A program made the position numbers and the translations under genes. The notes beneath the pieces are model-generated. The model searched no databases and was not told where the DNA came from. It saw only the letters and a list, made by a program, of their open reading frames with translations. Below, piece after piece: positions 5,107-42,486 of a stretch of 42,486 nt of DNA. The DNA comes from a virus. Position 1 is the stretch's first letter. Each line of letters opens with the position of its first letter. The DNA lies in IMG/VR virus record IMGVR_UViG_3300048930_000170, positions 1-42,486 of that record; one strand, written 5' to 3'.

Positions 5107-5402
5107 CACCACCCCTCCCTCTGAATACGGTCAATGAGCGCCGGGTCACACGGCCCGCCGCAGATCACGTCATTGCCGGGACCGCCTTCGATCAGGTCAG
5201 GGCCGTCCGTGCCTTGGATGAAGTCGTCGCCGTCCGTGCCTATGATGGTGTTGGGGGCTTCCCGGCCACCGGCCCCCTCGGTGTTTGCAAGCGCCGGCTC
5301 GTGTAGAGAGTGCGGAACCGAACCGTCGCCGCCGGAATTGATGCGCCCTGTCGGCTCGTGACAGGGAATGAGGACGAACAGGAGGGGAATGACGCAGGTC
5401 AT
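5106..5402 (-). CDS. Mini RTX-repeat protein with N-terminal export signal
   Basis: 98 residues. The N-terminus (TCVIPLLFVLIPC) is a hydrophobic export signal ending in a Cys with a weak lipobox-like context (LIPC, Pro at -1). Residues 55-81 form three consecutive nonapeptides of the calcium-binding RTX type: GTDGDDFIQ, GTDGPDLIE, GGPGNDVIC. Such repeats fold into a calcium-loaded parallel beta-roll in large secreted proteins. A stand-alone protein with only three repeats is unusual. C14 is followed by HEPT, as in the tiny lipoprotein at 5659-5733. The ATG overlaps the upstream stop (ATGA). Confidence 0.65.
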   Translation of the reverse strand: MTCVIPLLFVLIPCHEPTGRINSGGDGSVPHSLHEPALANTEGAGGREAPNTIIGTDGDDFIQGTDGPDLIEGGPGNDVICGGPCDPALIDRIQREGW

Positions 5403-5659
5403 TGGGCGGCCTCTTCAACCAGCGTTCGGATCACGGTCCGCATCGCTCGAATTGCCGATATCGCCTTTTTCCCGCATCCAGGTTGCTTCACAAACTCGAC
5501 CTCATCAAGTTCGACCAGCATCCGCGCGTTTCGCGCCCCCGCGTTCCACGCGAGGTTCTTTGCGCGGGTAGACATGGGCAGATGGTGGACGCTTACGCCC
5601 AGGATCTCCCCGTCGCGGGCTTTTTCGCGCAACCACTCCAGATCGAAACGGGCGTCCAT
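5399..5659 (-). CDS. RNA polymerase alpha C-terminal-domain-like protein
   Basis: 86 residues from ATG at 5659 (TGATG overlap with the upstream stop, AAGGA seven bases before). A GTG one codon earlier is possible. Residues about 28-74 align with the bacterial alpha-CTD: STRAKNL corresponds to the SVRSANCL helix and VEFVKQPGCGKKAISAI to the second helix-hairpin-helix region. R32, N35, G63 and K65 fall at exactly the spacing of E. coli alpha R265, N268, G296 and K298, which contact UP-element DNA. Positions matching S299 and E302 are both Ala. It has no alpha N-terminal domain. It may bind DNA or activators and alter host promoter use. The role is inference. Confidence 0.72.
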   Translation of the reverse strand: MDARFDLEWLREKARDGEILGVSVHHLPMSTRAKNLAWNAGARNARMLVELDEVEFVKQPGCGKKAISAIRAMRTVIRTLVEEAAQ

Positions 5660-21195: not shown

Positions 21196-21557
21196 CGCAC
21201 AGGCGTTCCCCGCGCGCCATGTCAGCGGGGTCTTTCTGGTGGACGGTTCCAGCGATGACGACGGTGGCACCAGGAAGGAACAGCCCACCACGGGGCGGGG
21301 TCAAGGCAAAGCGCAGTCTGAAAGACCGAAGCGCGACCCCCGGAGGCAGCATCGCCTTCGCAAGTAGCGGTCAACCTGTCCGGGCAGATGCAAGCCACGG
21401 CAGGGCCAAAGCGGCAGCCCGGCTCCGGCCAGCGAGATCGCGGAGGCATAAGGACCAACCTCGGCAAATCGCCGGGGCTGGTCGTCTTATGCCTTCTCAA
21501 CAGACCCTTTCCAACCAGCGAGACGGTAGAGAAGAAGAGATAGCAACGTTAGAATAA
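21192..21557 (+). CDS. Low-complexity frame, uncertain
   Basis: 121 residues (MTHRRSPRAMSAGSFWWTVP...). Ser/Arg/Pro-rich with no recognisable domain. The start overlaps the previous stop (ATGA), but third-position GC is weaker than in clear genes, and a competing frame from 21191 looks at least as protein-like though it has no start codon. The 3' half contains the strong hairpin at 21442-21496. I suspect this stretch is partly a regulatory leader. Confidence 0.3.
   Translation: MTHRRSPRAMSAGSFWWTVPAMTTVAPGRNSPPRGGVKAKRSLKDRSATPGGSIAFASSGQPVRADASHGRAKAAARLRPARSRRHKDQPRQIAGAGRLMPSQQTLSNQRDGREEEIATLE
21442..21496 (+). terminator. Very stable stem-loop ahead of the NusG-like gene
   Basis: Outer arms GGCATAAG/CTTATGCC, middle GACCA/TGGTC and inner CCTCGGC/GCCGGGG pair around the loop AAATC. 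There is one A-C mismatch, a two-base bulge, and three more pairs outside. There is no downstream U-tract, so it is not a simple intrinsic terminator. Attenuator, antitermination loading site, RNA processing site or small RNA are all possible. It lies 80 bp before the NusG-like start. Confidence 0.55.
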
Positions 21558-21576: not shown

Positions 21577-22116
21577 ATGACGACATGGCTGGCCTACATC
21601 ACGACCGGACGCGAGCTTGAAGTGGGCGAGGCGTTGGCGGCGCGCGGCATCCCGTGCTGGATCGCCCGCAAGGTCACGCTGAAGCGGCAGGGCAAGCGCC
21701 GCCGTCCGGACGTGATCGTTGACCCATACTTGCCCAACTACGCCTTCCTCGAGCTTACCGACGCTCAATTCCACGACCTGCACCACGGCCAGCCGGTGAA
21801 GCACCTGGCGCGCACCATGCACCCTCTGCGCCGCGACGACGAGGAAGCCCTTGCCGCCTTTCGCACGGACATTGACCGGTCCTATCGCGCCGCAATGCTG
21901 GCCGTCGAGAACAGCACCCGCGCCGAGCTTGCCGAATACCGGCGCGGGCAGATCATTCGCCCGATCAGCGGGCCGTTTGCCGACACGCTCCTGCGCTTCC
22001 GGCGCATCGTGGAAAGCGCGGCGGACCTGCATCCGATGATCGAAGCGGAAACGGAATTGTTCGGGCAGGTCGTGCGGGTGAAGGTCGATCCGCTGGACGT
22101 GAAGGCGGCGGAATGA
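21577..22116 (+). CDS. NusG-like transcription antitermination factor
   Basis: 179 residues. The N-terminal domain (MTTWLAYITTGRELEVGEAL, then GIPCWIARKVTLKRQGKRRRPDVIVDPYLPNYAFLEL) follows the NusG/RfaH NGN pattern with the typical Pxx-P-YxFxxL edge. Residues about 123-172 (GQIIRPISGPFAD...LFGQVVRVKVDP) look like a KOW domain. NusG paralogues bind the RNA polymerase clamp and suppress pausing or termination. As the last rightward early gene before HNH/terminase, it is a good candidate for the late-gene activator, comparable in role to lambda Q. Role inferred from family and position. Confidence 0.78.
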   Translation: MTTWLAYITTGRELEVGEALAARGIPCWIARKVTLKRQGKRRRPDVIVDPYLPNYAFLELTDAQFHDLHHGQPVKHLARTMHPLRRDDEEALAAFRTDIDRSYRAAMLAVENSTRAELAEYRRGQIIRPISGPFADTLLRFRRIVESAADLHPMIEAETELFGQVVRVKVDPLDVKAAE

Positions 22117-22358
22117 TTTCCCGTTGCCACAATCCTGCGTTGCGTCTATCATCCGCGCAAGATCGCACCTGCCCCACGCGCGGCGGTCGGTCGCCCGCAC
22201 CGGTCCCCCGTCAGGCCCGCACGCCTGACCTGCATCTAGGGGCCGGTGCGCAAGCATTCCATCCCAGCGCCTCGCATTCATCCCCCGCGCGCCCCTCAGG
22301 GGCCGTTCGCCATCCCCAGTATAGCGAGGCGCTGGGGCCTTCACGCAGGAGGCCGACT
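22117..22358. other. Non-coding stretch with nested dyads before HNH/terminase
   Basis: The frame of the HNH gene is open here but its product is Ser/Pro/Arg-rich with no domain, so I treat this as intergenic. It holds TCAGGC-N6-GCCTGA at 22211-22228, and a perfect 13-bp inverted repeat CCCAGCGCCTCGC (22263-22275) and GCGAGGCGCTGGG (22324-22336) separated by 48 bp that contains GCCCCT-C-AGGGGC. Candidate terminase-binding, cos-related or regulatory structure. Confidence 0.5.
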
Positions 22359-22673
22359 GTGCCCGGCCACCGATGGAACCACACACAGACACGCCACGAA
22401 AGAGGCTATGGCGCTGCATGGGTAAAACGTCGAGCCGCAGTTCTCGCTCGTGACCTACACCTCTGCCAGCCCTGCCTCACTCACGGACGATACAAGACCG
22501 CCACCCAAGTCGACCACATCACGCCTAAGGCCAGTGGCGGAACGGACGACCTCGACAACCTTCAGTCCATCTGCACCGCTTGCCACAACGACAAGACCAA
22601 GGCCGAGGCGGCCGAGGCGCAGGGACGCAAGCTGAGATGCGTGGTCGGGCCTGATGGATGGCCGGTCGCGTGA
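22359..22673 (+). CDS. HNH endonuclease next to terminase
   Basis: 104 residues from GTG at 22359, chosen because AGGAGG at 22347-22352 is six bases upstream. CQPCL and CTACH supply zinc pairs. TQVDHITPKASGGTDDLDNLQSICTACHNDKT contains the HNH core (DHI, N in DNL, H in CHNDKT). HNH proteins beside P27-type small terminases stimulate cohesive-end cleavage during packaging in HK97-like phages. That role fits here by gene order. Confidence 0.87.
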   Translation: MPGHRWNHTQTRHERGYGAAWVKRRAAVLARDLHLCQPCLTHGRYKTATQVDHITPKASGGTDDLDNLQSICTACHNDKTKAEAAEAQGRKLRCVVGPDGWPVA

Positions 22674-22763: not shown

Positions 22764-23192
22764 ATGGGTACGCGCGGACGAAAAAGCATAGCGGCGATCG
22801 AGGCCGAGGGCTTTGGCGGCGGCGCTGTTGCGCTGGTGCGCAGGCCTGATGCGCCGCTCGATCTGACACCGGAAGAAAGCGACGTGTGGGTCGAGACGGT
22901 CGAGGCGATGCCGGCCGACTGGTTCCCGCGCGAGACCTGGCCTCTGCTTCGTCAGTGGTGCCGCCACACGGTTACGGCGCGTCGGGTGTCGCAGCTGATC
23001 GACGCGACGGCAGCGCGAGAAGAGCTGGACGTTGCGGAGATGCGCGAGCTGCTGTCAATGCAGGCAAAAGAGACGGCAGCGCTGAAGGCTATGGCGGCAG
23101 CGATGCGGTTGAGCCAGCAGGCGAGCTACTCGGCGCGCGGTGCCGGCGGTGAGAAGTCGCGGCGAACGACGGTCAAGCGCCCTTGGGAGTGA
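22764..23192 (+). CDS. terS: Terminase small subunit, P27 family
   Basis: 142 residues. PDAPLDLTPEESDVWVETVEAMPADWFPRETWPLLRQWCRHTVTARRVSQLIDA is the P27-like pattern: LTxEExxxW, then LxxxCxxxxxxRR. The C-terminal part is helical and ends in a basic stretch (EKSRRTTVKRPWE). It binds packaging-site DNA and stimulates the large subunit, whose ATG overlaps the stop (TGATG). Confidence 0.88.
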   Translation: MGTRGRKSIAAIEAEGFGGGAVALVRRPDAPLDLTPEESDVWVETVEAMPADWFPRETWPLLRQWCRHTVTARRVSQLIDATAAREELDVAEMRELLSMQAKETAALKAMAAAMRLSQQASYSARGAGGEKSRRTTVKRPWE

Positions 23193-24718
23193 TGACCCGC
23201 GCCGAGCGCAACATCGCGTGGATCGAGGCGTACTGCCGCGTGCCCGAAGGGCGGGACGTTGGCAAGCCGGTGCGGCTGCGAGAGTGGCAGCGCGACGAGC
23301 TGCGGAAGATCTACGACAACCCGGCTGGTACGCGGCGGGCGATCCTGAGCTTCGGGCGGAAGAACGGCAAGACGGCGCTGTCGGCCTTCATCACGCTCCT
23401 GCACTTGTGCGGGCCGGAAGCGCGGGCGAACTCGCAGCTCTTCAGCGCGGCGCAGTCGAGGGACCAGGCGGCGATCCTGTTCTCCCTTGCCGCGAAGATC
23501 GTGCGCATGTCGCCCGACCTGAGCGCGGTCGTGACGGTGCGGGACACGGCCAAGCAACTGGTTTGCCCGGAGTTGGGGACGCTTTACCGGGCGCTATCGG
23601 CGGAAGCCTCGACGGCATACGGCTTGTCGCCGGTGCTGACGATCCACGACGAATTGGGACAGGTGAAGGGGCCTCGCTCGGAGTTGTACGAGGCGCTGGA
23701 GACCGCGACGGGCGCGCAAGAAAGCCCGTTGTCGGTCATCATTTCGACGCAGGCGCCGACCGATGCCGACCTTCTGTCGGTGCTGATCGACGACGCGCTG
23801 AAAGGGAACGATCCGCGCGTCGTGGTGTCGCTGTACGCCGCGCCCGAGAACGCGGACCCGTTCAGCGAAGAAGCGGTGCGTGCGGCTAACCCGGCGTTCG
23901 GGGACTTTCAGAACGCGGTCGAGACGATGGCGATGGCGGAAGACGCGCGCCGGATGCCGAGTCGTGAGGCGGAGTACCGCAACCTGATCCTGAACCAGCG
24001 GGTCGAGGTGTCGTCGCCGTTCATCACGCGGACGGTGTGGGAGACATGCGGGGACGCTCCGAAGCCGCTCGACGGCCTGCCGGTATACGCCGGGCTGGAC
24101 CTGTCTGAGGTGCGCGACCTGACCGCCTTTGTGGCGGTGGGGGTCGAGGGCGAGACGCTGCACACGCATCCGACCTTCTGGCTTCCGGGCGACGGGCTGG
24201 CGGAGAAGGCGCGGGCGGATCGGGTGCCTTACGACCTGTGGCGGGATCAGGGGTTTCTGGAAACAAGCCCTGGCCCCACGGTGGATTATCAGTGGGTCGC
24301 GGAGTGGCTGGCGGGGTTCATCAGCGAGCATGACGTTCGCAAGATTGCATTTGACCGCTGGAACTTCCGGCATCTTCGCCCGTGGCTGGCGAAGGCCGGC
24401 ATGTCAGACGAAACGATCGACGCTGTCTTCGAGCCGATGGGGCAAGGGTTTCAATCCATGTCGCCCGCGCTGCGCGATCTCGAGGCGGCGATCCTGAGCC
24501 GCAAACTGAAGCACGGTAAGCACCCTGTTCTGAGCATGTGCGCGGCAAACGCGACGGTGCAGATGGACCCTGCCGGCAACCGTAAACTGTCGAAGGCCAA
24601 GAGCCACGGAAGGATTGACGGCATGGTGGCTTTGGCAATGGCGGTTTCGGTGAGCGTGGCGGAAGAGGCTGGCGAGCCTCGGTCTTACCTTGAAGCCGCC
24701 GAGATGCTGGTGCTCTGA
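23192..24718 (+). CDS. terL: Terminase large subunit
   Basis: 508 residues from ATG at 23192. An upstream TTG would overlap the small-subunit gene. Walker A is GRKNGKT (55-61), Walker B is PVLTIHDE (147-154), with an ATPase coupling region ISTQAPTDADLL after it. The nuclease domain shows GLDLSEVRDLTAF and the C-terminal GRIDGMVALAMA acidic motif. It pumps DNA into the prohead and cuts the concatemer. The end overlaps the portal ATG. Confidence 0.95.
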   Translation: MTRAERNIAWIEAYCRVPEGRDVGKPVRLREWQRDELRKIYDNPAGTRRAILSFGRKNGKTALSAFITLLHLCGPEARANSQLFSAAQSRDQAAILFSLAAKIVRMSPDLSAVVTVRDTAKQLVCPELGTLYRALSAEASTAYGLSPVLTIHDELGQVKGPRSELYEALETATGAQESPLSVIISTQAPTDADLLSVLIDDALKGNDPRVVVSLYAAPENADPFSEEAVRAANPAFGDFQNAVETMAMAEDARRMPSREAEYRNLILNQRVEVSSPFITRTVWETCGDAPKPLDGLPVYAGLDLSEVRDLTAFVAVGVEGETLHTHPTFWLPGDGLAEKARADRVPYDLWRDQGFLETSPGPTVDYQWVAEWLAGFISEHDVRKIAFDRWNFRHLRPWLAKAGMSDETIDAVFEPMGQGFQSMSPALRDLEAAILSRKLKHGKHPVLSMCAANATVQMDPAGNRKLSKAKSHGRIDGMVALAMAVSVSVAEEAGEPRSYLEAAEMLVL

Positions 24719-41101: not shown

Positions 41102-42486
41102 ATGAGCATTTCCCAGCTCACCGCCGACTTCCCCGTTCAGCCGCTTGCGCTGTCATCGATCACCATCGACCAGACGACAATCCGTCAGGGCATGGTGCTC
41201 GGTTCGCAGGTGACGACGACCCTCGTCAACGCGCCAGCGGGCGGAACGCGCGCCTGGCTGATCGGCACGACGCCTCGCAGCGACGGCTACACGCTTCAGG
41301 CGGGCGACGTCGGGCAGGAGTTGAAGGCGACCTACACGGCTGGCGTCCTGCAATCCCTGCCCGTCACAATCTTGCCGGCCCTCCCTGCGGGGCAGCTTAC
41401 GGTGGGGATCGAGGTCGTGCGGGATACCGTCGGCACCTTCGCGCCCTATGCGGTGTTCATGTCCATGACCTCGGATGGGAACTATCCGCGCGCAAGCAGG
41501 GAGAACTTCGGGTCGCCCGAGCTGACGCCGGACCCGCAGATCGACCTCGCGATGCGGCATTCGCTTTGCTACTTCGAGACGGGCGACACGGGCACCTTCC
41601 GCAACCCGCGCCCCGCCGACCCCAGCCACATGGACAAGTCGCGGGCCGACGGCGTCTATGCGGCGCACGTCTACGAGACGCCGGGAACCTACACGATCCG
41701 GGCGAAGAAGTTCGACCCCGACGGGTCTTTCGGCACCTCGGAAGACGTCGTCATCACCGTGCAGGACCCGACCGACCATTTCAGCGCGGCGCGGACGCTT
41801 CTGGTCGCGGCGGACGGCAACTTCACCGGGGCGCCTCATGCCGCATCGGTGCCTGCGGAGCAGAAGTTCACTTCGCTGAACGCCGCGCGCACCTACATGG
41901 CGAGCGCGAGCTTCAGCAAGACGACGCCGTGGCGGTTGTGCCTGAAGCGGGGCGACACGTACAACGACCTCGCCGGGGCGTTCTCGCAGGCGTGGGCGCG
42001 CTTCGCCGGGGCCGCGCTGATCGATGCATGGGGCACCGGCGACCGTCCGGTGATTGACCTGACGACAGCCACGACGGGCTTCATCTCGCAGGACACTGCC
42101 GGCATCGGCGGCGCCATCCGGCTTGCCAACCTCGACGTAAAGGGCAACTGGAACGCCGAGATCGGGTATCCGAAAGCCGGATACGCGCGCTGGCGCTTCA
42201 ACATGATCGAGACCATTCACAACTCGGTCACGAGCGGCCTGCGATTCCAGGTCGCCTGCAACGTCCGCTTCTCGGACTGTCGTTGGGTCTGGCTGAACAC
42301 CCCGCAGGGTGGATGGGTGCCCGACAGTCAGAAGGGCTACATCGTCCTTCAGGACATCGATTACCACCACAACGGCGACTACATGCACTTCGGTGGCGAG
42401 CGCATGACCGGGTTCTTCATGAACGGGTGCTGGCAGACGCCGCATCCGAACTCGACGCTCGGCTCGATGGCTCGCGACGCCATGCC
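41102..42486 (+). CDS. Tailspike, N-terminal part (continues at 1)
   Basis: Residues 1-461 of an approximately 958-residue protein that runs across the window ends; the last base of this window falls inside a codon and the frame continues unbroken into base 1. Residues about 150-222 (YFETGDTGTFRNP...AHVYETPGTYTIRAKKFDPDG) form a PKD-like Ig domain. From about residue 240 the sequence becomes a right-handed beta-helix pattern (LTTATTGFISQDTAGIGGAI, RLANLDVKGNWNAEI, ...). N-terminal 110 residues probably attach to the tail. Host range is expected to depend on this gene. Confidence 0.85.
   Translation, partial: MSISQLTADFPVQPLALSSITIDQTTIRQGMVLGSQVTTTLVNAPAGGTRAWLIGTTPRSDGYTLQAGDVGQELKATYTAGVLQSLPVTILPALPAGQLTVGIEVVRDTVGTFAPYAVFMSMTSDGNYPRASRENFGSPELTPDPQIDLAMRHSLCYFETGDTGTFRNPRPADPSHMDKSRADGVYAAHVYETPGTYTIRAKKFDPDGSFGTSEDVVITVQDPTDHFSAARTLLVAADGNFTGAPHAASVPAEQKFTSLNAARTYMASASFSKTTPWRLCLKRGDTYNDLAGAFSQAWARFAGAALIDAWGTGDRPVIDLTTATTGFISQDTAGIGGAIRLANLDVKGNWNAEIGYPKAGYARWRFNMIETIHNSVTSGLRFQVACNVRFSDCRWVWLNTPQGGWVPDSQKGYIVLQDIDYHHNGDYMHFGGERMTGFFMNGCWQTPHPNSTLGSMARDAM
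42337..42486. repeat. Terminal direct repeat, right copy
   Basis: Partner of 1-150; see there. Holds C at 42463 where the left copy has A at 127. Confidence 0.93.

Follow-up and report, generated by a model that had tools for sequence, protein, structure and literature searches.

How might a phage with no apparent Q- or N-like gene bring its late operon into expression? The question arises from an open reading frame at 21577–22116 (+ strand) in a 42,486-nt stretch of viral DNA (the whole of which is referred to here as the window). In the original prediction this reading frame was proposed to encode a NusG/RfaH-type regulator of the late genes, with a hairpin at 21442 as a possible cis-acting target. 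The two ends of the window carry a direct repeat of 150 nt (1–150 and 42337–42486, 99% identical) and, because of this terminal repeat, the window probably represents an entire circular phage genome, about 42.3 kb in size.

A divergent NusG/RfaH-family protein

The open reading frame was confirmed at exactly these coordinates and encodes a protein of 179 aa, with an NGN domain at approximately residues 1–100 and a KOW domain at approximately residues 120–178. A Pfam scan of the protein gave no match, but it is matched by PHROG 23142 (E 6e-19) and by PHROG 6386, annotated as ‘transcription antiterminator’ (E 8e-6). The best NCBIfam match is to UpxY (NF033644; E 5e-5), at 23.3 bits against a curated cut-off of 100, while housekeeping NusG (TIGR00922) scores 15.1 bits (cut-off 135.7) and RfaH (PRK09014) 12.1 bits (cut-off 124), so that the protein falls short of the curated cut-offs for all three families alike. 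UpxY proteins serve capsule operons in Bacteroides and resemble the window protein in adjoining their target operon. When a profile built from six homologues was compared with the PDB, NusG and RfaH chains were matched, the best being the KOW domain of 1nz9 (E 0.0042). The KOW motif reads GQ-ISGPFAD in the window protein, and alignment of the homologues shows conservation of this motif, as GQ-(I/V)SGPF-D, and of a PNY motif.

Structure prediction against NusG and RfaH, which had been proposed as the check on the family assignment, gave a consistent result. AlphaFold2 gave a model with a middling mean pLDDT of 69.7, and a Foldseek search with it returned 20 PDB matches at E ≤ 0.001, all 20 of them to NusG, RfaH or Spt5. 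With VIA-align 2 the KOW domain aligned to Thermotoga maritima NusG with Z 9.2 over 56 residues and the NGN domain to RfaH with Z 7.6 over 92 residues; as other small barrels also reach Z of about 8 in this comparison, the sequence motifs and the two-domain match share the argument with these scores. The KOW domain is modelled as a beta barrel, a prediction that is compatible with an RfaH-type switch as well as with a fixed barrel. PHROG, PDB-profile and fold matches thus agree in recognizing NGN followed by KOW, as originally proposed, and the assignment of the product to the NusG/Spt5 superfamily, as a divergent NusG/RfaH-family protein, is firm.

Position of the gene and the candidate promoter and leader after it

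Gene order in the window was established with a simple codon-usage gene caller together with family matches. A leftward block carries recombination genes, SSB and the integrase, and a rightward block carries, from 5′ to 3′, a helicase, a Toprim primase, a small ORF, a non-coding RNA, the nusG-like gene, an HNH endonuclease gene, the terminase small and large subunits, portal, protease and capsid. The nusG-like gene is therefore the last of the early rightward operon, as had been predicted. The HNH gene (22359–22673, +) is the first late gene and is assigned an inferred GTG start preceded by GGAGG at 22348–22352; a longer HNH reading frame from 22113 is probably not the gene. It is followed by the terminase small subunit (22764–23192, +; phrog_12559, 1.4e-28) and by the large subunit (23192–24718, +), which was identified by the gene caller and by DNA similarity to an annotated terL and which begins the structural operon. 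A scan of early proteins revealed no Q- or N-like family, in agreement with the original prediction. The other RNA polymerase-directed product that had been proposed is a short protein (5399–5659, −) with some likeness to the alpha C-terminal domain of RNA polymerase, but the claim is weak as its score of 15.1 bits lies below the Pfam cut-off of 23.8.

Relatives of the nusG-like protein could be found only with profiles, as protein-pattern searches made from the window sequence alone returned none in viral or genome contigs. In a tblastn search of the phage collection, homologues were found in Sulfitobacter phages only (32% identity). In two of these, pCB2047-C and phiGT1, the homologue is the last gene of the early rightward block and precedes the terminase region; in the circular phiGT1 record, two small ORFs stand between it and the record's end. 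The phiGT1 homologue, phiGT1_67 (MT584811.1), which thus occupies the same slot, was labelled ‘RfaH/NusG transcription antitermination protein’ by its depositors on the basis of HHpred; it is 34% identical to the window protein, from which it differs by 23 extra residues inserted after the first strand, and a search for a study of its function found none. In an intact Rhodobacteraceae prophage (G090) the ORFs for the two terminase subunits, small and large, come after the homologue, from which a single opposite-strand gene separates them. The opposite-strand gene at L057 9644–10390, which by eye is DUF4145-like, separates the NusG-like gene of the prophage from its late promoter element. A further homologue (G088) has an in-frame stop and appears decayed. 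Two genome matches to the first profile (L011 and L012) look like chromosomal RfaH-type genes and were rejected as phage genes.

In the window the gene lies just upstream of a candidate promoter and the late operon, which is the arrangement expected of a Q-like regulator if the promoter is indeed a late one. This promoter, TTGCCA-17-TATCAT (22124–22152, +), begins 8 nt past the nusG-like stop codon and is the only sigma70-type site scoring at least 10 out of 12 on either strand of the 42-kb genome; shuffled versions of the 242-nt leader reach a score of 10 in 0.05% of cases (P 0.0005). The untranslated leader that contains it extends from the nusG-like stop codon to the HNH start (22117–22358, +) and is strongly folded, with a folding z of −5.25 to −5.7 against a mean of −0.4 (sd 1.1) elsewhere in the genome. 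It forms two long hairpins, the first at 22197–22249 (+; outer arms 22197–22208/22239–22249 and inner arms 22210–22216/22223–22229) and the second at 22263–22336 (+; perfect 13-bp arms 22263–22275/22324–22336), which lies directly 5′ of the Shine–Dalgarno sequence. No terminator-like hairpin followed by a run of T was found in this leader, and nothing similar to it was found in the phage collection.

The same interval 3′ of the gene in the relatives carries a conserved element, TTGCG-N15-TGGTAGCC-N3-GGCTA or a close variant, with a TGGTAG core. It occurs as a single copy in each of six NusG-carrying loci of the Sulfitobacter type. When 2.9 million viral contigs were scanned, the full pattern was found in four NusG carriers and in one coding region of a 360-kb contig, a match that looks like chance, so that the element is found essentially only beside the NusG-like gene. 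In the G090 prophage the interval from the NusG-like gene to terS contains GCTATATCTGGTAGTCTTCACCTATT, which fits a relaxed form of the pattern exactly and is the only sequence to do so in 394 genomes; as the relaxed pattern was drawn up after the G090 sequence had been seen, this is support but not an independent test. Two readings suit the core, an extended −10 (TGnTAnnnT) and a portion of an ops-like sequence, and since TGGTAGNNT also fits an ordinary extended −10 the element may be only a promoter. We considered GGTAGCC-N3-GGCTA as a recognition hairpin and rejected it, the dyad not being preserved in G090, and this loss makes the extended −10 the simpler reading. Leaders of the Sulfitobacter phages are mostly unremarkable in folding. 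The window's own promoter lacks the TGGTAG element, and no shared cis motif was found in the window.

A putative Q-like late switch

Family identity, the conserved slot, the adjoining promoter and leader and the element tied to the gene in relatives all support a reading in which the NusG paralogue fills the place of a lambda Q-type late regulator, and we would put the probability of this at about 0.6. RNA polymerase binding, antitermination and a loading site are inferred from what the NusG, RfaH, LoaP and Q families do. The protein, encoded last in the early rightward operon, would be made towards the close of the early phase, and its NGN domain would bind the clamp helices of host RNA polymerase in competition with host NusG. 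Loading would take place on polymerase starting at, or pausing just downstream of, the sigma70 promoter, and the loaded polymerase would then continue past both the folded leader and termination signals and transcribe the late operon, of about 20 kb.

Two other modes of action need to be weighed. The KOW domain retains GPFAD and ELFGQ motifs that resemble those of NusG, and in E. coli NusG the corresponding region contacts Rho and S10; the protein might therefore be a general anti-Rho or anti-polarity factor that displaces host NusG from any polymerase on phage DNA, or sequesters Rho or S10, without a dedicated loading site, and the lack of a shared cis motif in the window would fit this. General action of this sort, however, would not require the gene to keep one place ahead of the late promoter, nor a promoter element linked to the gene in relatives, and we regard it as unlikely. 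As the conserved sequence of the relatives spans the promoter spacer and −10 and could be an activator site, the protein might instead act on late transcription at initiation, but its best fold matches are elongation factors and NGN–KOW proteins bind elongating RNA polymerase, which makes promoter activation quite improbable.

The proposed Q-like role may be compared with known systems. Lambda Q likewise lies just before the late operon with a promoter (pR′) and leader immediately 3′, but it has a different protein fold and no match to a Q family was found. RfaH of E. coli shares the NGN–KOW fold and the PNY motif in NGN and is a specialized NusG paralogue acting on long, horizontally acquired operons. 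The relatives' element contains GGTAG, as ops does. Unlike RfaH, the window protein is phage-encoded, adjoins its presumed target operon and has a KOW domain modelled as a beta barrel and not as an alpha hairpin, and the window's late leader has no ops-like sequence: TGGTAGCC is absent from it, and GGTAG is seen in the relatives only. LoaP of Bacillus velezensis is also a NusG paralogue encoded beside its target, with a long structured leader before the operon (PMC12691694), but no LoaP-type RNA hairpin was identified. In the Caulobacter gene transfer agent, an alphaproteobacterial phage-like element, the structural gene cluster is similarly under antitermination, but its regulator GafZ is not a NusG paralogue and is proposed to work with host NusG (PMC11150451).

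Known specialized NusG paralogues serve operons for capsules, antibiotics and plasmid transfer. Full-text searches, mostly outside subscription journals, brought up no work on a phage NusG paralogue controlling late genes, while rfaH-like genes on prophages are mentioned in PMC7593976. If the Q-like reading is correct, a single-protein NusG switch lying beside its own promoter and leader would offer a compact model for the recruitment of NusG paralogues. Late control by a NusG/RfaH-type factor, as originally proposed, is probable, whereas the part of that proposal concerning the upstream hairpin did not survive.

A conserved structured RNA upstream of the gene

The strong hairpin proposed as the NusG target (21443–21495, +) proved to be the 3′ hairpin of a conserved, pseudoknotted non-coding RNA of about 285 nt (21236–21520, +). 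The same stretch is present in Paracoccus phage Shpa at 76% identity with gaps of 1–2 nt, and 22 of 35 viral contigs fetched by way of their primase carry the RNA (model E < 1e-23). In a curated structure of 17 sequences, 95.8% of the cells are paired and 32 of 57 pairs are changed on both sides, pairing falling to 35–45% when the partners are slid by 1–3 columns. Searching 295 Rhodobacteraceae genomes with a covariance model of the 5′ part added 20 copies, spread over 19 genomes, and these held-out copies show pairing in 97.9% of cells, with changes on both sides at 26 of 31 pairs; they support the pseudoknot helix too, which in the window joins 21324–21328 with 21368–21372, though this helix was not in the model. 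A conserved G–U pair argues for an RNA of the + strand. For columns 88–102 of alignment A5, a local stem covaried better than the long-range stem suggested by RNAalifold and was adopted instead. Coding for protein was rejected, the two-sequence alignment having gaps of 1–2 nt and the pairing covarying. Neither a tRNA, a tmRNA nor any Rfam RNA accounted for the region: in an Rfam search of the window and 12 other loci no gathering score was reached and the one tRNA seen was unrelated. The RNA is apparently a separate, undescribed structured-RNA family, and its support is sufficient to justify testing it as a new family of mobile-element RNAs.

Loci bearing the RNA (the window; L020; 22 among L023–L053; L071–L090) comprise alphaproteobacterial phages, prophages, integrase-linked islands and a plasmid. 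Eight of the genome copies lie directly upstream of a terminase gene on the same strand, several others are downstream of an integrase and one sits on a plasmid of Agrobacterium; the copies that precede terminases, and those in primase-free islands, weaken the idea that the RNA is a replication origin of the primase module. Among the loci examined the NusG-like gene and the RNA occur together in the window only, and because of this distribution the hairpin was rejected as a specific target of the protein. The RNA ends 57 nt before the nusG-like gene and LoaP requires an RNA hairpin in its target leader (PMC12691694), but with no NusG-like gene found in the loci of the 22 viral contigs, the RNA present in 19 genomes besides, and no RNA found in the stretches examined of NusG-carrying relatives, a LoaP-like regulator recruited by this RNA in its own 5′ leader and controlling its own operon is very improbable. 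The RNA may be a cis element of late control or a trans-acting RNA, and from its position we favour late control, at rather less than even odds.

Relatives that share the replication module but lack a NusG-like gene often encode a basic protein in the ORF that follows the RNA. Examples of these unrelated, mostly basic proteins are at L053 6276–6977, L049 6525–7133, L052 6836–7705 and L029 6454–7014. Two proteins of this slot gave weak matches to DUF6456 only, a link to be taken as a lead and nothing more. Tentatively, there may be a class of alphaproteobacterial phages in which a NusG-fold protein that loads at a late promoter reserved for it provides the late switch, in functional convergence with lambda Q, related phages holding other regulators in the slot and many sharing the new pseudoknotted RNA ahead of the late regulator or operon. 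A recurring ORF family, with a motif like DARWWA...KAYALAAYEALP, was seen upstream of the RNA in several prophages (L078, L083, L084, L088 and L105); a Pfam scan of two members gave no match.

The 3′ hairpin of the RNA is flanked by a direct repeat, CCAGCGAGA in the window (copies at 21423–21437 and 21510–21523, both +) and mostly 6–9 nt in length, which differs between lineages but matches within each of 29 copies. A copy's own pair shares 7.4 nt on average and crossed pairs share 5.6, a value as high as the former being reached in none of 20,000 permutations. This looks like a guide and its target or a duplicated binding site.
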